Positions 7,579-45,754 of a stretch of 64,000 nt of DNA are shown in pieces (position 1 is the first letter of the stretch; every line of letters begins with the position of its first letter). The stretch is from Labrenzia sp. R4_2. Lineage in GTDB: Bacteria > Pseudomonadota > Alphaproteobacteria > Rhizobiales > Stappiaceae. The position numbers and the translations under genes are program-made. The notes under the pieces are model-generated. The model was not told the DNA's origin and searched no databases. It saw only the letters and a program-made list of their open reading frames with translations. The DNA lies in the NCBI RefSeq assembly GCF_017743865.1, contig NZ_JAGHRJ010000002.1:496001-560000 (forward strand), given 5' to 3'.

Positions 7579-8155
7579 ATTCCACCCCTAGAAAAACTGG
7601 GTGGGATCATAGCTTCCGCAAGGTTAAAGATAGTATAATCACATACATCGTAAAAGTTGCGGAGTAGCGTTCGCACATTAGTAAAATATTCTGAGAAGCC
7701 GACTCAGCTGACGCGTACATTTCTTAAGCCCTCGCTCATGGTCAGGCTAATATTTGAAAGATGTTTCAGCGAGTTAGTGGTCGGCGGGAACACGGTATTC
7801 GAGGAGGCCACTCTTCGACCGGTTCCCTGCCGACCTACCCCACGGACCCAGGAGATGCGGCGGACCTGAGCAATCCCGAGGGGAAACTGATCTCGTTTGC
7901 TGCGAAAAATTCTGCATGACAAACGGTTGTCAGGCCGAAACCTAACAAAACCTACACTAACTCAACATTGTTCAAATGCAATATTTTCCGTGGAAAGCAC
8001 ACAGAAAGATGAGGATTTTAATTAATGCGTAACCTTAACGTGATCGTCGGCAAACTATTACAGACGAAAGACCTAGTCGTTTTTTCGAATGAGTATGTCA
8101 CAGAGAGCCAACAGACGGAGTGGCAATCCACGGGATGGAGCGATTCTTTGCCGGC
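7579..8155. other. 577-base intergenic region between divK and the chemoreceptor gene
   Basis: No convincing protein-coding frame. Frames of about 70 codons exist on both strands but have no recognisable domain and no ribosome-binding site. The left part is AT-rich and should carry the chemoreceptor promoter. The centre (7779-7835) contains a long rod-like inverted repeat described separately. No pleD remnant is visible on either strand. Confidence 0.6.
7779..7835. repeat. Long imperfect hairpin, candidate structured RNA
   Basis: GGTCGGCGGGAAC at 7779-7791 is complementary to GTTCCCTGCCGACC at 7822-7835 with a single bulged base. The inside continues to pair (CGGT/ACCG, CGA/TCG, GAG/CTC) up to a GCCA loop. 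The rod is about 23 pairs long with small bulges. There is no T-tract on either side, so it is not a simple terminator. It could be a small RNA, a processing or protein-binding site, or a dispersed palindromic element. Confidence 0.5.
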
Positions 8156-14910: not shown

Positions 14911-15030
14911 GACCATCATCAAGAGTTGGGACAGATGCCCCACGCCAACCTGCCGATCCGGGCAAGGTGGTTCTTCGAACAGAAGATGCGGCCGTGAACT
15001 TCAAGTTCAAAGGCAACGAATCGGATCGAA
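14911..15030 (+). promoter_or_regulatory. SAM-I/SAM-IV clan riboswitch upstream of metA
   Basis: The leader carries the SAM-I-clan core: ATCAAGAG at 14918-14925; P1 CATC (14914-14917) with GATG (14985-14988); P2 GTTGG/CCAAC (14925-14929/14945-14949); GCCAACC; P3 TGCC/GGCA (14951-14954/14961-14964); the joining AAGGTGG; and P4 GTTC-TTC-GAAC (14970-14980). A further small hairpin (GAACTTCAAGTTC) follows P1. The P3 loop GATCCG (14955-14960) is perfectly complementary to CGGATC at 15022-15027, which is the extra pseudoknot of SAM-IV and SAM-I/IV types. It ends about 38 bases before the metA start, so SAM should repress metA expression. Confidence 0.85.
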
Positions 15031-37517: not shown

Positions 37518-38132
37518 TCAACCGAGTTCGTTAACGCTGGTCACGACTTTCCCGACGAGACCATAGTCAATGCCCTCTTCCGGGCTCATCCAGTAGTCAC
37601 GGTCAGTGTCTTTTTCGATACGCTCGATCGGCTGCCCGGTGGCATCCGCAAAGATCTTGTTCAGACGGTCGCGCATCTTGATGATTTCCTTGGCCTGGAT
37701 CTCGATGTCCGTTGCCATGCCGCCGGCGCCACCGGACGGTTGGTGCAACAAGAAGCGCGTGTTCGGCGTGCAGAAGCGCAGCTCCTTCGGCACAGAAACG
37801 TAGATCAAGGCACCGGCACTTGCGACCCAGCCCATGCCGAGAATACGAACTTCCGGAGAAATGAACTTGATGGTGTCGTGGATCATGTCACCTGATTCAA
37901 CATGGCCGCCCGGAGACGACACAATGACAGTGATCGGGTCATTGGAAACCTGTGCCAGCGCCAGAAGGCGGGCGCACACATCACGGGCCATGTCCTGGGT
38001 CACCGGACCTGTAATCAGGACGGTGCGCGCTTCGAACAGATGCTTGTCGACCTGGATCGACGGTTGGGCTTTGGACTTGTCCTCGTCGTCATCGTCGAGG
38101 CGTGCAGGCACCGTGGTCGAATAGTTTTTCAT
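37518..38132 (-). CDS. ClpP-like serine protease subunit
   Basis: 204-aa S14 peptidase, a ClpP paralogue. Triad: Ser105 in [10 protein letters not shown], His130 in FLLHQPSGG and Asp near 179 in the RDYWMS block. Compared with the housekeeping ClpP, the serine motif is divergent (WVASAGA rather than QAASMGA) and the N-terminus carries an acidic DDDDED stretch. It may assemble with, or replace, the main ClpP under some conditions (inference). No Clp ATPase is adjacent. Confidence 0.88.
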
Positions 38133-38321
38133 GCGCAGGATTTAGCTCCCTTGGCTGTTGTGCCGGTCATGCCCGGCGGTTCTTTCCGGTCTGGTCAGCG
38201 CGCCGAGCCGAACCGGTTTGTCCCATGTGTAAGCGAAGAGCTGCGCTCTCGCAAATCTTGTCAGCGTTCTTAAGCCGAAAAGAGTTATCAGACCGGCAAC
38301 ATATGCTCACAAAGACGCTTT

Positions 38322-39173
38322 TCAATCCGGCCGGTGTGGATGAATGGGGAGTTTGTCGCCCCGACGCCCCGCGATCAGATGCCAGGCCAGCATCATCCCA
38401 AATGGCAAAGACGGCCAGACAAACCACAGAGTCGACAGCCCCGACGTCAGCAAATTGAGGACGAAGAAGAACCCAATCATGAAAACACAGGACTGGACCC
38501 GCCTCGGTTGAGACCGGATCCACCGGCGCGCCTGTTCAAATCCGTTCGCCACCGCCTGCGTGTCTTTTTCCCAATTGCCACGACTGTTGGGTTCAGCAGT
38601 GTCCTGCAAATCGTCCTCATTAGATCCAGCGGTCTCAGGAGAATTCCGGCCGCCCAAGCGCACAGAGAAAGTCTGCACTGGCTCGGAGACGTTCTTGACC
38701 TGCTTTGGACCGAGAGGTTCGAAGCCGAGCGCCAGTTTTGTACGGACCTGGTCGTAAACGGATTGCGACAGCATGATGCCGCCCTTTGGGGCCAATTCCT
38801 GCAGCCGCGCCGCCACGTTGACACCGTCTCCGTAAATGTCATCGCCCTCAATCATGACATCACCAAGATTCAACCCGATCCGGAACTCCATCCGGGTCGT
38901 GTCCGGCAACTCAGCGTTTTTGTGAGACAGCTCATTTTGTATTTCGACAGCACATTGCACAGCTTCAATCACAGAAGAAAACTCAACGATGACCGCATCG
39001 CCCCATGTGTTGACGATGCGTCCGTTGTGGCGTGCTGTGAGAGAAGACATGATACTGCGGTAGGTTTTCAGACGATTCAGCGTGCCGTCTTCATCCTGCT
39101 CCATGAGCCTGGAATAGTGTGCAACATCTGCACACATGATCGCGGCCAAACGGCGCTTCGCCCGTTCCATCAA
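38322..39173 (-). CDS. Class III cyclase with C-terminal 2TM region
   Basis: 283 aa. The N-terminal cyclase domain has metal Asp residues in MCADVAHYS and NTWGDAVIVEF; DGVNVAARL supplies the catalytic Asn/Arg. The position of the purine-contact Lys is Asn (GRIVNTWGD), as in many members of this subgroup. A linker leads to two membrane segments near 227-265. The membrane part lies after the catalytic domain, unlike most cyclases. Product (cAMP, cGMP) not determinable. Confidence 0.87.
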   Translation of the reverse strand: MMERAKRRLAAIMCADVAHYSRLMEQDEDGTLNRLKTYRSIMSSLTARHNGRIVNTWGDAVIVEFSSVIEAVQCAVEIQNELSHKNAELPDTTRMEFRIGLNLGDVMIEGDDIYGDGVNVAARLQELAPKGGIMLSQSVYDQVRTKLALGFEPLGPKQVKNVSEPVQTFSVRLGGRNSPETAGSNEDDLQDTAEPNSRGNWEKDTQAVANGFEQARRWIRSQPRRVQSCVFMIGFFFVLNLLTSGLSTLWFVWPSLPFGMMLAWHLIAGRRGDKLPIHPHRPD

Positions 39174-39317
39174 TCTACCCCTGATTGCCCGACACCCGAT
39201 AACAAACTTGTGACCGGCACCTTAGTTAGGAATGGGAATCTTCGGCTGAAATTGCAAGGAAAAACCTTTGTCAATTGTTGCAATGCCAACCGTCAGATGA
39301 GTTCCGGTCGCGGTATC

Positions 39318-39722
39318 CTATTGCGTTTCAGCCAGCGTTCTCAAAGCGTTCAGCGCATCTTCCGCCCGTTCTTCAGGAACAAAAACATGGTCGTGAAAAA
39401 ACGCCGCAACCACGTTTGCCGGGATGCCCTGCTCCGCCAATGCTTTGGCAACAGCTGCCGTCAATCCAACTGCTTCAAGCGACGAATGCACAGTCAGTGT
39501 GATCCTGCGAAACCATTCTGCCTCTGCCAGTCCGAGCTCACGTGCCCGTTCCAACGGGAGAATGGCCGTCATGCCTTCCGTTTCAGAAAAAAGACCGATC
39601 GGTTCGTATTCGGCGAGTTCAACCAGGCTCTTGGTCGCGAACGTGCAAAACACATAGGGCTCAGGATCCAGCATCGGCCGCATATGGGAGATCAAGTTTT
39701 GAAGGTCGGTCTCACCGGTCAT
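39318..39722 (-). CDS. ACT-domain protein (DUF2241/COG3602)
   Basis: 134 aa, two ACT-like units: an N-terminal DUF2241 half (DPEPYVFCTFA) and a C-terminal CASTOR/ACT half (RITLTVHSSLEAVGLTAAVAKAL ... IPANVVAAFFHDHVFVP). ACT domains bind amino acids; no catalytic domain is attached, so it is probably an amino-acid-responsive regulator of unknown target. Confidence 0.88.
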   Translation of the reverse strand: MTGETDLQNLISHMRPMLDPEPYVFCTFATKSLVELAEYEPIGLFSETEGMTAILPLERARELGLAEAEWFRRITLTVHSSLEAVGLTAAVAKALAEQGIPANVVAAFFHDHVFVPEERAEDALNALRTLAETQ

Positions 39723-39753
39723 GATTGTTCTTTTCTATCAGTTAACTGTATTT

Positions 39754-40188
39754 CTAGAATCGCGGCCATCTTCCCCGCCCCGCATCCCGGCCTGCTATAT
39801 GCCAGTAAACCAAACCGGCGAGCGCACCGGAGCTCATAAACGACACAAGATCAAACAGGGTATACACCTGATCGTCTATCACTCTGGTGACCCCAAAACC
39901 TATTACAGCACCGGACAACGTGTAAAAGATCCAATGTTGAATGTGAAACATTTCCGCTGTTATGAGAATGAAGGTGACGGGCAAAATACTCAGAGCATAA
40001 GCAAAGAAAACCAAAACAATTGTCACAATGAATACGGCAAATATCGAACCAGTTGGCCGGTCAGTTGACTCTGAGAAATAGCCAGATAGCAATAATAGGA
40101 AAATCAACAAAACTATTGCTGCTGTGACGCATCCATAAAAATACCCTTTCATTATCCGCCAGAGGGCAAAATCTTCATGTGCGGTCAA
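39754..40188 (-). CDS. Four-pass membrane protein of unknown function
   Basis: 144 aa with four hydrophobic segments (about 13-37, 46-70, 72-95, 112-130). Composition is AT-richer than flanking genes. No family recognised. The ORF is closed by a stop shortly before the ACT gene and shows no clear ribosome site, so the start is uncertain. Confidence 0.6.
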   Translation of the reverse strand: MTAHEDFALWRIMKGYFYGCVTAAIVLLIFLLLLSGYFSESTDRPTGSIFAVFIVTIVLVFFAYALSILPVTFILITAEMFHIQHWIFYTLSGAVIGFGVTRVIDDQVYTLFDLVSFMSSGALAGLVYWHIAGRDAGRGRWPRF

Positions 40189-40223
40189 CTGTTTCCCCTG
40201 ACACAGACTTCGAAAGCCCGAGA

Positions 40224-42011
40224 CTAAACACCCGCCAGAAACACAACAAGAAGCCCACTGCCGATGGCCAAGAGTTTCTGCAGCGGCTTTGTAAACCCGA
40301 TCACGCCAAAGGAAATCAGGGCGAGACCGAGCCCGATCTTGGCCGCAGCCAACAGCGCGAAAATTGGCGCTTCCGACAGGACAATCACCGACGGGTTGGC
40401 GATCATCGCCAAGGGAATGACGTAGAGCCCAATGCCCAGCGCCATCGCCGTGAAGGCCACTTTCAGCCAGTTTTCGCCGATCATCCCGGCTGCAATGAAA
40501 ACCGCCCCACAGACTGGGGGCGTGATGGTAGAAATCAGCGCAAACCAGAACACAAACAAATGCGCCTGAAGCGGCTCAAGGCCCTGCTCGATGAGCGCTG
40601 GTCCCGCAACAGACACACAGATGACGTAAGCCGCCGTCGTTGGAACTTCCATGCCCAGAACCAGACAGGCAATGGCTGTCAGCAAAAGGGCCGGCCACAA
40701 GTAACCGCCGGACCCGGAAAGGATCAACGAGGTGATTTTTACACCGAGCCCCGTAATCGCGAGAACACCGATGATGATCGAGGCGCAGATGATGATCGAG
40801 GCGATGACGGAGACTTGGCGCGCTGCATTTAAAAAGGCGCTTTCCAACCGTCCAAGGATCTCCTTGCCCGAAGCCACACCTTTCGCAGTAAAAAACAGAA
40901 GTAGAAAGCCTGCCAGAATGGCGAGGCAGGCCGCATATTGCGGTGTGTATTTCGCGCCGAACATTCCGTAAAGCAGCACCGCAAACGGCACCATGAAGAA
41001 AGCCGAGGTGATGAGCACCTGGCGGACCGGTGGCTGATCCTCCTTCGCAACGGCTTTCAGATCATGATGACGGGCATAGGCGTTGATCCCGATCCAGACC
41101 GCGAAAAAGTAGAGGATCGCCGGCAACAGCGCGGCCATCATGATCTGCGTGTACGGCACCCGGGTCAGTTCGACCATGACAAAAGCGCCTGCCCCCATCA
41201 GCGGCGGCATGATCTGACCACCAGAAGACGCAACAGCCTCAACAGCGCCAGCCAAACGTTTGGGATATCCCAGCCGGGTCATCGCCGGCAGTGTGATTGC
41301 GCCGGTCGAAGCGACATTCGCCGACGCAGAACCGGAGATGGACCCAAAAAGGGCCGAAGACAGCACGGACACCTTCGCCGCACCGCCCTTGAGACGGCCC
41401 GCGGCGGCCGCTGCCAGATTCATGAAGCCTTGGCCCGCTTCCCCGGCATTCAAGACCGCGCCGAAGATCACAAAGATCGCAACCACATTGACCGACACCC
41501 CGGTCAGGCTGCCCCAGATACCGCCTTCGGCGATGGTGAGGGTTCCAAGAAAGCTGGCCAGCGGTGTTCCGGAATGCCCGAATTCACCGGGAATATGCTG
41601 GCCGAACAATCCGTAAGCCAGCGCGAGCGCTGCCACAATCGGCAGTGGCCAGCCGATGGCACGGCGAGCACCTTCCAAAACCACGATCAAAAGCACCGCA
41701 GCCACCCAATACTGAAAGGAGCTTTCCAGAAAGCCATACTGATCCGATAACACATTCTGATTGACCGCCACCCAAAGGCACGCAGCCACACCAAGGGCAC
41801 ACAATAAAGCGCCGCTTGCGCGCTTAAGCAATCCACCGTCAACGAACAGGAAGATCCACGGCAAGGCCAAGGCCAGGTGCAGCGGTCGGCTGACCAGGTT
41901 TGGAACCAGACCGGAAAAGATCAGCCCGAGGTGAAACACCACGAGGATCACGGCAAGGCAAAGCATCAGGGTTCGCCAGACAGGCGACGTCGGGGTGTCA
42001 GTGCTGATCAT
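40224..42011 (-). CDS. TRAP transporter fused permease (TAXI type)
   Basis: 595-aa inner-membrane protein joining the small (DctQ-like, about 1-130) and large (DctM-like) TRAP permease subunits. DctM signatures: GSISGSASANVASTGAITLPAM near 222-243 and SGGQIMPPLMGAGAF near 262-276. Operates with the periplasmic TAXI protein encoded 62 bases upstream. Imports an organic solute with Na+; the gene neighbourhood hints at a guanidino or amine compound (inference). Confidence 0.94.
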   Translation of the reverse strand: MISTDTPTSPVWRTLMLCLAVILVVFHLGLIFSGLVPNLVSRPLHLALALPWIFLFVDGGLLKRASGALLCALGVAACLWVAVNQNVLSDQYGFLESSFQYWVAAVLLIVVLEGARRAIGWPLPIVAALALAYGLFGQHIPGEFGHSGTPLASFLGTLTIAEGGIWGSLTGVSVNVVAIFVIFGAVLNAGEAGQGFMNLAAAAAGRLKGGAAKVSVLSSALFGSISGSASANVASTGAITLPAMTRLGYPKRLAGAVEAVASSGGQIMPPLMGAGAFVMVELTRVPYTQIMMAALLPAILYFFAVWIGINAYARHHDLKAVAKEDQPPVRQVLITSAFFMVPFAVLLYGMFGAKYTPQYAACLAILAGFLLLFFTAKGVASGKEILGRLESAFLNAARQVSVIASIIICASIIIGVLAITGLGVKITSLILSGSGGYLWPALLLTAIACLVLGMEVPTTAAYVICVSVAGPALIEQGLEPLQAHLFVFWFALISTITPPVCGAVFIAAGMIGENWLKVAFTAMALGIGLYVIPLAMIANPSVIVLSEAPIFALLAAAKIGLGLALISFGVIGFTKPLQKLLAIGSGLLVVFLAGV

Positions 42012-42073
42012 GGAAACTGTTCAAAAAAGAGAGATCCGGCGCCAAATGAGCGCCGGACCGGGAGACAATTGCG

Positions 42074-43030
42074 TTACTTTTGAGCATCCGTGAGATCGAT
42101 GCCTGCTTCCTGGTAATAGCGCACGGCACCTGGATGGATTTTGCCGGTGATGTTTTCCATCAGACCCTGATCCACACCGTTCCACCAAGCTGCGCCCTCA
42201 CCCATCTTCGCCTTCTGCTCCCAAAAGGTCTTGGTCAGGGCGTAGGCCGTGTCGTCATCCATCGCAGTCGTGGTGAAGGCGACCACCGGCAAGGATGTCG
42301 TGGTGATGTCCTCGCTCTGTCCGGCATAGGTGCCAGCTGGAATGACCAGCTTGGCCCGCTTGGATTGCGCGATCTGATCATCAGACAATGAAATGACATT
42401 CACTCCAGTCGATGCAGCCGCTTCAATGACGTTCGGTGCCGGCCAGGACCCGGCGGTTACAAATCCGTCGATTTGGCCATTCTTGAGCGCTGCAACCGCG
42501 TTGGACAGCTCAACCTCGGCAAGATCTACCTTGCCTTCCAGGCCGAACAGTTTGAGATACTTCTCTCCTTCACGCGCCCCAAAAGAGCCTTTGCCGAGCA
42601 AAATGGTTTTGCCTTCCATTCCGGCGAAATCGGTCACACCACTCTTTTCAGACATGACGAAGTGCATGGTCAGCGAAGGGATCGGAAAGAGGGCGCGGAT
42701 CTCGTCAAATTTCGGATCGCCCTTGCCCTCGAACATGGCTTTGCCGCCCTGGGCAAGCCTCACGAGCACCGGCGGCGTCGTGAAGACATAGTCTCCGCCG
42801 CGCGCGCGGGCTTCCATCACGTTTTGAACAGAACCCTGGCTTTCTTCAACGGTGACGATGATGTCGCCATTGCTGCCTTCCTTGACCGCTTCTGCGATCT
42901 GAACGCCCATTTGGTAGTAGGACGAGGTGGACTTCGCCGACTTGTAAGTGATGCGCGTTTCCGCTTGTGCTTGAACGGCACCAAACGACAAGGACAGGCC
43001 AATGGCTAGTTTCAAAAGGCCGGATTTCAT
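42074..43030 (-). CDS. TAXI-family TRAP substrate-binding protein
   Basis: 318-aa periplasmic binding protein. Signal peptide about 22 residues (MKSGLLKLAIGLSLSFGAVQA). Family features: ITYKSAKSTSSYYQMGVQIAEAV, GSVQNVMEARARGGDYVFT, GSWPAPNVIEAAASTG. ATG 43030 has a GGGAG ribosome site; the longer frame start does not. Delivers the ligand to the fused permease downstream. Ligand unknown. Confidence 0.94.
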   Translation of the reverse strand: MKSGLLKLAIGLSLSFGAVQAQAETRITYKSAKSTSSYYQMGVQIAEAVKEGSNGDIIVTVEESQGSVQNVMEARARGGDYVFTTPPVLVRLAQGGKAMFEGKGDPKFDEIRALFPIPSLTMHFVMSEKSGVTDFAGMEGKTILLGKGSFGAREGEKYLKLFGLEGKVDLAEVELSNAVAALKNGQIDGFVTAGSWPAPNVIEAAASTGVNVISLSDDQIAQSKRAKLVIPAGTYAGQSEDITTTSLPVVAFTTTAMDDDTAYALTKTFWEQKAKMGEGAAWWNGVDQGLMENITGKIHPGAVRYYQEAGIDLTDAQK

Positions 43031-43198
43031 GCGTTCGCTCCCTATGGTTTTGATCAACGTTATTGGGAGCTTGGCAGCGGTGCAATGCTATTACGGAAAG
43101 AAATAATACTCATACCGTTCAAACCTGCCGGAATGACCGTAAAACTACCGTATGTGTTGGGACCCTACACCGGTATTACCCCAAATTTCCACCGCCGA

Positions 43199-43585
43199 TC
43201 AGGCGATGGTTGGCTCCCAAATTCCCTTAACAGGCTCGGCTTCTGAGTCTCCCGGCCATGGCGGCATGGAGATACAAATAAACTTCAGCGGCTGATCGCC
43301 GTCGCAGCGGTATTGAAACGCTGTGCCAACCGGAATGTCGATCGACACTCCAGCTTCCAGAACCACCGTTTCTTCACGCCCTTCCCGTGCACGCCAGATC
43401 TGACCGCGCCCCTCCAGCACATGCCAGAACTCGCTCACGGTCTTCAAACGGCATCCTTTGTTCACCTGCCCGGGCGGTACTGTGCTGTGGATCATGTTCC
43501 CCGTCTCGCCGTCCATAATGTACCGGATTTGAGCACCGGCGGGCGATTTGGCATCCGGCTTTTCCGGCAATTTGGTTGTTTTCAT
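43199..43585 (-). CDS. Cupin-domain protein
   Basis: 128-aa single-domain cupin (TVPPGQVNKGCR; EFWHVLEGRGQIW; GVSIDIPVGTAFQYRC). Only one His in the first motif region is evident, so metal binding is uncertain. Its ATG overlaps the stop of the ureohydrolase gene (ATGA), so the two proteins are made together; the TAXI gene follows after 168 bases. Confidence 0.85.
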   Translation of the reverse strand: MKTTKLPEKPDAKSPAGAQIRYIMDGETGNMIHSTVPPGQVNKGCRLKTVSEFWHVLEGRGQIWRAREGREETVVLEAGVSIDIPVGTAFQYRCDGDQPLKFICISMPPWPGDSEAEPVKGIWEPTIA

Positions 43586-44559
43586 CCCTGCTCCGTTCCT
43601 TTCAGGTTCAAGGCCATATTGCACAAGAGTTCGAACATGATCGACACGCCCAGAAAGGCCGTCCCGCCGCTTTGATCGAACGGCGGCGACACCTCAACAA
43701 GATCAGCGCCGACAATATTGACCCCGTCCAGCATTCGGGCGACTTGCAGCGCTTCAAAAGAGTTCGGACCGCCGACTTCCGGTGTGCCGGTCCCCGGTGC
43801 AAACGCCGGATCGACAAAATCGATGTCGTAGGAGACATAGGTCGCGCCTTGACCAGCGATCTCCTTTGCCTCCGCCAGGACATCCTGCACCCCGCGGGCG
43901 AAATACTCCTCGATGGCAATCACCCGAATGCCGACACTTTCGGCAAAGTCCCGGTCTTCAAAATCATAGGCCGTGCCCCGGATTCCGATCTGCACGACCC
44001 GTTTGGGGTCCAGCAGCCCCTCCTCGACCGCGCGCCGGAAGGGCGTTCCGTGGGTGTATTGCATGCCGCCGAAATAGCTCTTGAATAGATCCGTATGGCT
44101 GTCGAAATGGATCATCCCAACCGGGCCGTGCTTGTTTGCAATCGCTCGGAGTATCGGCAGGGAACACAGGTGATCACCACCCGCTGTCAGCGGTACAACA
44201 CCCGCCTCCAGAACGTCATCATAGAACGCAGTCATGCGGTGAAGGCTGTCGTCAACGCTTGCCGGGTTGGGGCCGACATCACCAAGATCCGCGCAATTGA
44301 CCAGTTCAAACGGCCGGACGCCGGTGTCCCCGTTTTGGGCCCGGATCATTGTCGAGGCATCCCGGAGCTGCCGCGGACCGTGGCGCGGCCCCGGCCTGTT
44401 GGTCGTGCCGCCATCCCACGGCGCTCCGATCAGACCGATCTGCACGTCCGCCAGCCGGGGACTGTCGAGTTCGACATGCGGCAGCCGCATGAAGGTCGGC
44501 ACACCGGCAAAGCGCGGCAGGTCGAACCCGGAAACGGGCTGAAAGAACGGATCTGACAT
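43582..44559 (-). CDS. Agmatinase-family ureohydrolase
   Basis: 325-aa dinuclear-metal hydrolase that cleaves a guanidino group, releasing urea. All metal ligands are present: H130 (GGDHL), D153/H155/D157 (FDSHTDLF) and D245/D247 (YDIDFVDP). Substrate could be agmatine, guanidinobutyrate, guanidinopropionate or another guanidino compound; sequence alone does not tell. ATG 44559 has a GGGAG site. First gene of the leftward operon with cupin and TRAP genes, and divergent from a guanidine exporter. Confidence 0.92.
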   Translation of the reverse strand: MSDPFFQPVSGFDLPRFAGVPTFMRLPHVELDSPRLADVQIGLIGAPWDGGTTNRPGPRHGPRQLRDASTMIRAQNGDTGVRPFELVNCADLGDVGPNPASVDDSLHRMTAFYDDVLEAGVVPLTAGGDHLCSLPILRAIANKHGPVGMIHFDSHTDLFKSYFGGMQYTHGTPFRRAVEEGLLDPKRVVQIGIRGTAYDFEDRDFAESVGIRVIAIEEYFARGVQDVLAEAKEIAGQGATYVSYDIDFVDPAFAPGTGTPEVGGPNSFEALQVARMLDGVNIVGADLVEVSPPFDQSGGTAFLGVSIMFELLCNMALNLKGTEQG

Positions 44560-44596
44560 GAACAACTCCCAAGGCGAGACGGCTGGAGCAAAAGGT

Positions 44597-44618
44597 GTCT
44601 GATTGAACATAACCAGAC
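44597..44618. promoter_or_regulatory. Dyad upstream of the ureohydrolase operon
   Basis: GTCTG-A-TT-GAACAT-AA-C-CAGAC is a 22-base imperfect dyad about 40 bases upstream of the ureohydrolase start, a plausible operator. No cognate regulator is encoded nearby. Low confidence. Confidence 0.35.
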
Positions 44619-44653
44619 TTGAACCCGTCAAGGGACTTCTTATCTCTCGGTCA

Positions 44654-44699
44654 CGTGGACGTCCGCGTATTCCCTAAAAAATCAATCCGGGACGACCCG
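44654..44699 (+). promoter_or_regulatory. Guanidine-II (mini-ykkC) riboswitch
   Basis: Two short hairpins lie in tandem: CGTGG-ACGT-CCGCG (44654-44667) and CGGG-ACGA-CCCG (44688-44699), about 20 bases apart. Guanidine-II riboswitches consist of two such stems with ACGR loops that kiss through their CG dinucleotides. The second loop fits exactly; the first (ACGT) deviates at the last position. The ribosome site GGAGAC begins 6 bases after the second hairpin, fitting translational control of the exporter gene. A guanidinium exporter is the expected downstream gene. Confidence 0.82.
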
Positions 44700-44714
44700 A
44701 GCATGGAGACAAAC

Positions 44715-45026
44715 ATGGCTTGGGTCTTTTTGTTACTGGCCGGCCTTTTGGAAATCATATGGGCGTATGCGATGAAACAGTCGCACGGCTTCAGTCGCCT
44801 CTTGCCAACCCTCGTCATGGCGGTGGCCATGGCCGGGTCTTTCGGCTTGCTGGCCGTTTCGATGCGCAGCTTGCCGCTCGGAACGGCTTACATGATCTGG
44901 ACCGGGATTGGTGCCATCGGCGCTTTTGCTGTCGGTGTCTGGATCCTTGGCGAAGCAATCTCCCCACAACGCCTGATCGCGGCACTGCTGATCGTCGCTG
45001 GCATGGTGACCATGAAACTGTCTTGA
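44715..45026 (+). CDS. gdx: Guanidinium exporter, SMR family (Gdx/SugE)
   Basis: 103-aa four-helix small multidrug resistance protein working as a dual-topology dimer. The proton/substrate Glu13 and Trp16 (LLEIIWAYAMK) match the Gdx subgroup, not EmrE. GTAYMIWTGIGA and GEAISPQR are subgroup-typical. ATG 44715 is preferred because GGAGAC lies just upstream; ATG 44703 is in frame. Presence of a guanidine-II riboswitch in front strongly supports guanidinium export. Confidence 0.93.
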   Translation: MAWVFLLLAGLLEIIWAYAMKQSHGFSRLLPTLVMAVAMAGSFGLLAVSMRSLPLGTAYMIWTGIGAIGAFAVGVWILGEAISPQRLIAALLIVAGMVTMKLS

Positions 45027-45064
45027 TCACACCGGCTGCGCCAACAAGACCGGATCGGCGTGGG

Positions 45065-45754
45065 CTACCACTCGATCCGTTCGCCCATGTGATCAAAATA
45101 GCCGCCGGTCTCAGCAGGTGTCAGGCCATTGATCACCGACAGCAGGCGTTCGGCGGCCTTTTCGGGCGCCTGCACCTCCAGACCCGATTTGGCAAACCCT
45201 TCGGTCAGAGGTGTTCGCACGGTTCCAGGATGCAGCGCCACACAGACCGCGTGCGGTTTGCGTCGCGCGAGCTCAATGGACGCGGTCCGCACAAGCTGAT
45301 TAAGGGCGGCTTTCGATGCCCGGTAACCGTACCAGCCCCCCAGATTGTTGTCTGAAATGGATCCAACCCGCGCCGACAGTGTTGCAAAGACGCTTTTGCC
45401 TTCTTTGGGCAGGAGCGGAAGGAAATGCTTCATCAAGAGCGCCGGACCGATGGCGTTGATGGCATAAGATTCTGCAAGTGCTTGGGGGTCCAACTCCCGA
45501 AGGCTCTTTTCCGGCTTGCGATCGCCGAGCGTCAAAGCTCCTGTTGCATCAAAAACGAGCCGCAGATCATCCCCCTGCCCGGCAACCCACTTGGCAGCGG
45601 CTTGAATGCTGATCTCGTCGAGCAAATCCAAACCTGGATGTGTTCTGCGGGAAAGGCCAACCACGCGGTCATAAGGACCGGTTTCATCCAGCACCCGCAA
45701 CAAAGCGGACCCGATACCGCCCGTTGCCCCAATCACAATTGCCAAAGTACCCAT
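45065..45754 (-). CDS. Short-chain dehydrogenase/reductase (C-factor-like)
   Basis: 229-aa SDR. NAD(P) motif GATGGIGSAL near residues 8-17; catalytic motif YGYRASK with Tyr and Lys in place, unlike the SDR at 18.6 kb. ATG 45754 with AGGA upstream; longer starts are not supported. Substrate unknown. Convergent with gdx, 38-base gap. Confidence 0.9.
   Translation of the reverse strand: MGTLAIVIGATGGIGSALLRVLDETGPYDRVVGLSRRTHPGLDLLDEISIQAAAKWVAGQGDDLRLVFDATGALTLGDRKPEKSLRELDPQALAESYAINAIGPALLMKHFLPLLPKEGKSVFATLSARVGSISDNNLGGWYGYRASKAALNQLVRTASIELARRKPHAVCVALHPGTVRTPLTEGFAKSGLEVQAPEKAAERLLSVINGLTPAETGGYFDHMGERIEW

Follow-up and report, generated by a model that had tools for sequence, protein, structure and literature searches.

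The window analyzed in this study is a stretch of 64,000 nucleotides from Labrenzia sp. R4_2 (genome G000 in the comparisons). On its plus strand, a guanidine-II (mini-ykkC) riboswitch aptamer (44651–44700) stands in front of gdx (44715–45026), which encodes a Gdx-type small multidrug resistance (SMR) transporter of 103 aa. The minus strand carries the genes for a ureohydrolase of the arginase family (43582–44559, 325 aa; PF00491), a cupin-domain protein (43199–43585; PF07883, 41.1 bits), a TAXI-family TRAP solute-binding protein (42074–43030; TIGR02122, 167.6 bits, cut-off 84.35) and a fused TRAP transporter permease (40224–42011; TIGR02123, 471.1 bits, cut-off 320.65). According to the coordinates and translations, the ATG of the cupin gene (43585) overlaps the stop codon of the ureohydrolase gene by four bases (ATGA). 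An inverted repeat, GTCTG...CAGAC, is located at 44597–44618 between the ureohydrolase start and the riboswitch. It is kept in the sister genomes G051 and G035 and is a possible operator of the divergent operon. A sigma-70 promoter scan of 44500–45120 found no promoter.

The two hairpins of the aptamer were read by eye. P1 spans positions 44653–44668 with the loop ACGU at 44659–44662, and P2 spans positions 44688–44699 with the loop ACGA at 44692–44695. Both are on one strand and are separated by a short linker. The 3′ end of the aptamer at 44700 is 14 bases upstream of the gdx start, and the end of P2 is 15 bases before the ATG at 44715. The initial annotation had placed two ACGN-loop hairpins at 44654–44667 and 44688–44699, and both were found there. 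It had also proposed a search with the Guanidine-II covariance model. A match to RF01068 was indeed obtained at 44651–44700 on the plus strand (25.5 bits, E 0.0025, permissive scan of 301 bases), but it is below the curated cut-off, the gathering score of 32. The site was absent from the matches when the whole window was scanned with Rfam at the gathering score. In its own genome, the site is the top of five RF01068 matches (E 0.011), and the next has an E value of 0.86.

As a second model, R1 was built from 21 aligned related sites, with G000 and its nearest kin, G051 and G035, left out. In the window, R1 gave 29.8 bits for the riboswitch site (E 9.6e-6) and 12.0 bits for the next best match. 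In the whole genome, the E value was 8.5e-4 at the same 29.8 bits, and the next best match had 18.8 bits. Thus, the matches of R1 and Rfam to the window site are more than chance. At the orthologous site, RF01068 scored 34.9 bits in G035 and 27.6 bits in G051. Among 87 genomes of the bacterial family, 24 have an RF01068 match above the cut-off and 40 have any match with an E value of 0.1 or better. The window site is classed as guanidine-II because it is homologous to the sites of relatives that exceed the cut-off, and not by its own Rfam score.

Covariation was analyzed with 26 aligned leaders (25 distinct sequences), and 500 shuffles and slid versions of the alignment were used as controls. 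Double-sided changes were detected in 24 cells of the stem pairs. None of the 500 shuffles was as high, and the slid controls reached 17 at most. All but one of these 24 cells are in P1, and P2 is nearly invariant. Counted by pairs, five showed a double-sided change, which is not above the controls (five is also attained in 161 of the 500 shuffles and in one slid version). Of the seven pairs assigned to P1, the outermost three are not formed in 11 to 21 of the 25 sequences; the common P1 therefore comprises about four pairs. By the cell count, the stems of the riboswitch are kept by compensatory change.

The loops were compared with the ACGR consensus. The P2 loop, ACGA, fits, whereas ACGU in P1 deviates at its last base. 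This U is present in G000 and G051, and ACGG is kept in G035. Passages of PMC5486947 describe the fourth loop base of guanidine-II as a conserved purine that is extrahelical and stacked; thus, the affinity for guanidine may be reduced in the window site. The ACGU loop is the main departure from the guanidine-II family. In common with RF01068 members before gdx/sugE, the window leader possesses two GC-rich ACG-loop hairpins, a short linker and the ribosome site of an SMR gene downstream. It differs from them in the P1 loop, which ends with U and not with A or G, and in the score below the Rfam cut-off.

The gdx product matches PF00893 with 89.4 bits and possesses E13 and W16, counted from the ATG at 44715. 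Of 22 NCBIfam models, SugE gave the highest score, although its 114.7 bits do not reach the cut-off of 126. Among solved structures, the protein is most similar to the chains 8vxu and 6wk5 (89.6–89.7 bits), which we take to be Gdx-Clo; EmrE (7mgx) scored 47.6 bits. The match to these guanidinium/proton antiporters is full-length, both residues are shared, and the sequence suggests no difference in kind. Thus, the window protein belongs to the Gdx subtype, being nearer to Gdx than to EmrE/Qac, and guanidinium export is predicted. The initial annotation had named a Gdx-type gene with E13/W16 behind the hairpins and a riboswitch-exporter link. The former is borne out by the solved chains, and the latter is supported by the covariance models, the covariation and the relatives. 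Guanidine-II together with Gdx is an already known arrangement; the window adds a sub-threshold case with an unusual P1 loop.

Within the family, a gdx gene of at least 50% identity is present in 25 of the 87 genomes, a count from which the gdx remnant of G054 was left out. G049, in whose gdx some letters are masked, counts toward the 25 but not toward the 24 leaders inspected. All 24 leaders carry ACG-loop hairpins directly upstream of the gene. The second hairpin was found by pattern in every leader, the first by pattern in 21 and by eye in the remaining three (G034, G060 and G061). R1 is weak on these three (10.4 bits with E 0.53, 18.5 bits and 15.6 bits, respectively). In the leader of G052, the second loop is GCGA. 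A guanidine-II site was also found with a more distant SMR gene, that of G056 (44% identity over 99 residues). The hairpins thus extend beyond the group of 50% identity, and the other five distant SMR genes inspected were all without them. A tree built from 24 Gdx proteins gave no placement for the source of the window gdx. Two gdx genomes have a second guanidine-II site. In G064 (L128, 7608–7652), it precedes a 210-aa protein that looks by eye like a hydrolase of the isochorismatase type; in G045 (L129, 7592–7637), it precedes what resembles the start of an SMR protein (MAW), and no 60-aa reading frame was found there.

The region 44694–44726 (plus strand) is the predicted expression platform. 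In the minimum-energy fold, positions 44694–44705, consisting of the 3′ part of P2 and the following bases, pair with the start-codon region at 44714–44726 (z −3.1). The ribosome site GGAGA (44705–44709) is mostly left in the loop of this hairpin, and the start codon is paired. The same helix is the minimum-energy fold in G051 and G035, and the probability of P2 in the unconstrained ensemble is 0.00 in all three genomes. Their start regions are near-identical, which leaves no variation by which to judge the helix from covariation. Imposing P1 and P2 in the window costs 9 kcal/mol. With both stems imposed, the mean unpaired share of the start region went from 0.51 to 0.41 in G000, to 0.43 in G051 and to 0.24 in G035. 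Thus, mean start-region accessibility did not separate the free and constrained folds in the window clade. Among 25 leaders with rule-chosen start codons, accessibility went up in 15, was equal in three and went down in seven.

According to PMC12186494, guanidine-II acts at the level of translation, whose initiation is promoted by guanidine. A potential stem-loop over P2 and the ribosome site, which cannot coexist with the folded riboswitch, is described in PMC5486947. The predicted folds of the window leader fit this published scheme. Guanidinium would join the two hairpins loop to loop, and this joining would keep P2 formed. The 3′ part of P2 could then no longer pair with the gdx start region; the freed start region would allow gdx translation to begin, and guanidinium would be pumped out. 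What the data show is a conserved, covarying aptamer located in front of gdx and, in the folds predicted for three genomes, a competing helix. That the ligand is bound, that the switch is of the ON type and which ion is transported are inferred from the family, the first two because the accessibility result ran against an opening of the start region in the window clade. Overall, it is highly probable that the 5′ leader of gdx holds a guanidine-II riboswitch that turns on export in response to guanidinium, and that the neighboring genes form a separate unit. Being a cis element on the plus strand, the riboswitch has gdx as its only possible target; for this reason, control of the ureohydrolase operon, on the opposite strand, was rejected.

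The ureohydrolase was compared with solved enzymes. The best match was 3-guanidinopropionase (3nip, Pseudomonas aeruginosa GpuA; 380.9 bits), followed by guanidinobutyrase (3nio, 316.6), proclavaminate amidinohydrolase (245.6), agmatinase (189.2), 7esr/7oi1 (156.2), which we take to be guanidine hydrolase, arginase (106.3) and metformin hydrolase subunit B (98.9). A profile of eight ureohydrolase relatives gave the same order. H130, D153, H155, D157, D245 and D247, presumably the six metal ligands of the ureohydrolase family, are invariant in eight aligned sequences and occupy the same positions in GpuA. Guanidino-acid hydrolases release urea, not guanidine. With urea as the product, the substrate of the exporter would not be made by the ureohydrolase. 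Y162 is likewise invariant in the eight sequences and aligns with Y157 of GpuA, which is involved in substrate recognition according to a portion of PMC10833137. From these likenesses, we read the enzyme as a guanidino-acid hydrolase, with GpuA/GbuA as nearer relatives than agmatinase, arginase or guanidinase. Its substrate is probably a guanidino acid, and the enzyme differs from GpuA in being set among cupin, TAXI, TRAP, ACT and ClpP genes.

To see how far these genes travel together, the surroundings of their relatives were inspected. A ureohydrolase of at least 80% identity is present in 28 of the 87 family genomes. An intact gdx lies beside it in three (G000, G051 and G035), and a broken remnant in G054. 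In the latter (L009, 1041–1409), gdx is in three pieces with stops, and the ureohydrolase-cupin-TAXI-TRAP operon beside it matches over its length. The leader above this broken gdx still gives 24.9 bits with R1. The TAXI protein is found in 62 of the 87 genomes, some of them in many contigs, and lies near the ureohydrolase only in the same four. Among 16 regions of 18 kb around ureohydrolase relatives, TAXI-TRAP is present in three (G035, G051 and G054), the cupin in ten, and ACT and ClpP in 11. In the window (37518–45754), the gene content between SDR and clpP varies by genome, and ureohydrolase, ACT and ClpP are together in 11 of the 16 regions. Thus, gene content at the SDR-ClpP locus is labile, and it is a lineage-specific trait that gdx, ureohydrolase and TAXI-TRAP lie side by side.

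The converse search gave 16 TAXI-TRAP regions from other genomes (12 of the family, four of the class), in which no ureohydrolase, cupin or gdx was found. In 15 of them, no other window gene that was searched for is present, and the 16th (G038) has the order SDR-TAXI-TRAP-ACT-ClpP. The neighbors of the TAXI genes in the 16 regions gave no pointer to the substrate of TAXI or TRAP. Ureohydrolase loci numbered 559 in named genomes; among the best 80, gdx and TAXI-TRAP occur at one, which is G051 itself. With R1, only this locus had an E value below 0.1 (25.5 bits), and the next gave 18.0 bits (E 0.12). A conserved ureohydrolase-TRAP or gdx-ureohydrolase pair was rejected, the adjacency being confined to four of the 87 family genomes. 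Hairpin-like patterns near the ureohydrolases of L164 and L185 were also dropped: they have no plausible leader-and-start and are absent from the R1 matches at E 1, and that of L185 is inside the frame of a 417-aa reading frame. By eye, an ABC-transporter ATPase-like gene is within about 5 kb in 18 of the best 80 loci (L132–L211); the importer partner of the enzyme may thus differ by lineage.

These results bear on the initial annotation, which had seen here a module for guanidino uptake, hydrolysis and guanidinium export. Its components are as described: the agmatinase-family ureohydrolase has the six metal ligands, and the coupled cupin and TAXI-TRAP importer of the divergent operon agree with the Pfam and NCBIfam matches and the coordinates. 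In the module itself, TAXI-TRAP would import a guanidino compound, the ureohydrolase would cleave it, and Gdx would export guanidinium that had been produced or brought in, the whole having evolved as a single unit. The physical adjacency of the genes and the guanidino-acid hydrolase type of the enzyme speak for this module. Moreover, gdx and TAXI-TRAP adjoin the ureohydrolase in the same four genomes, as a module acquired once would look, so that a single joint acquisition could be the explanation. However, there are three intact cases in 87 genomes and a gdx remnant in the fourth, the 16 TAXI-TRAP regions inspected elsewhere are without the other window genes searched for except in G038, which has no ureohydrolase in its region, the product would be urea rather than guanidine, and the operon is on the strand opposite to gdx. 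The module is thus not supported, and we regard it as very unlikely. If instead the ureohydrolase were a guanidinase, exporter and hydrolase would both answer the same toxin. Parts of PMC2864571 link speB genes to the ykkC and ykkC-III motifs, parts of PMC3766115 list agmatine utilization among the mini-ykkC regulons, and the enzyme scores 182.4 bits with the NCBIfam agmatinase model, above the cut-off of 174.3. The scores of 3nip and 3nio far exceed that of 7esr/7oi1, though, Y162 takes the place of Y157 of guanidinopropionase, which is involved in substrate recognition (PMC10833137), and none of the nine window proteins run through Pfam or NCBIfam is a nickel-accessory protein. The assignment as guanidinase was therefore rejected and has hardly any probability left. 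Riboswitch-controlled guanidine degradation operons (guanidine carboxylase/guanidinase) likewise combine guanidino chemistry with a guanidine riboswitch; the window differs from them in that the hydrolase is on the other strand, outside riboswitch control, and not nearest to the guanidinase type.

A further explanation concerns the riboswitch and not its neighbors. With the ACGU loop, the element in G000 and G051 might have lost useful guanidinium binding, and gdx would then be constitutive or silent. The U in place of a conserved purine, where G035 keeps ACGG, the sub-threshold Rfam score and the broken gdx copy of G054 point in this direction. Nevertheless, the two stems are intact, as are the ACG triplets, the ribosome site and the reading frame, the P1 stems of G000 and G051 still pair despite the ACGU loop, and R1 gives the window site its 29.8 bits. 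Decay of the riboswitch is thus unlikely. Our preferred reading is a guanidinium-responsive switch for gdx. The ureohydrolase-cupin-TAXI-TRAP genes beside it most likely belong to a unit of their own, which came to adjoin gdx in one small lineage, probably by chance. This unit probably hydrolyzes a guanidino acid. The window case argues against a tempting guanidino pathway.

Guanidine-II sites of the family were also found outside gdx leaders. Among the RF01068 matches that are not before gdx, eight precede a PACE gene (Pfam was run on two of them). A protein search detected 28 PACE genes in 26 of the 87 family genomes. In all 14 genes at least 51% identical to the seed (L212–L225; 14 of the 87 genomes), two ACG hairpins lie directly upstream. 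Both were found by pattern in 12 leaders; in L224 and L225, the second loop, ACGC, was read by eye. An unusually long linker separates the hairpins in L216, L217, L218 and L220 (around 1411–1478). The product of L212 is a PACE efflux transporter by NCBIfam (132.4 bits, cut-off 80). No such hairpins were detected at the 14 more distant PACE loci (L226–L239), where R1 found nothing under E 0.2. Eight of the 14 PACE-leader sites are in the training set of R1. On the six outside it, R1 gave 22.5–32.1 bits, the match at L216 not spanning the first hairpin in one piece. Rfam listed two of these six, below the cut-off, and none of the four long-linker leaders, which R1 did find. Upstream of the distant PACE genes, L226–L234 share a conserved AT-rich leader with repeated CTATC/GATAG words, which is unlike guanidine-II and is perhaps the operator of a repressor.

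The 25 genomes with gdx of at least 50% identity and the 14 with a riboswitch-preceded PACE gene do not overlap among the 87. With the relatedness of the genomes ignored, the hypergeometric probability of this non-overlap is 0.0054 for the 87 genomes and 2.9e-4 for the 59 genomes of the two genera in which these genes occur. Among 190 genomes of the class, such a PACE gene occurs in five (six genes). One of these genes, L241 from another family, has a guanidine-II site at 1939–1987 (35.0 bits with Rfam and 43.9 bits with R1). These results suggest that guanidine-II in this family serves one of two interchangeable pumps, Gdx or PACE (AceI-like, 'chlorhexidine'). We lean toward the view that the PACE clade is a guanidinium exporter that replaces Gdx.

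If this is true, PACE proteins gain a natural substrate, guanidinium. The riboswitch before the PACE clade names a concrete and directly testable candidate, just as riboswitches first pointed to Gdx. This side result matters more than the window finding, in which little is new. The link between a guanidine riboswitch and PACE was not found in the literature searched; the tables of the original guanidine-II paper or the supplements of PMC2864571 may list it. PACE transporters are unnamed in PMC12186494 (on guanidine-II), PMC7266159 and PMC7736828, and the word 'riboswitch' does not occur in the PACE papers PMC6195760 and PMC9045395. Among the mini-ykkC/ykkC associations given in portions of PMC3766115 and PMC2864571 are multidrug transporters and emrE, and PACE is not named in those portions.

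Other RNA elements were also noted. The window contains a SAM-I/IV riboswitch at 14911–15030 on the plus strand (54.6 bits, cut-off 41.1) and an EcpR1 small RNA (Atu_C6) at 7774–7886 on the minus strand (91.8 bits, cut-off 60). In G008 (L073) and G037 (L075), guanidine-II sites are located 24–25 bases before a gene of the DUF1989 type, assigned by PF09347 for L073 and by likeness for L075. We take DUF1989 to be the urea/guanidine-carboxylase associated family.
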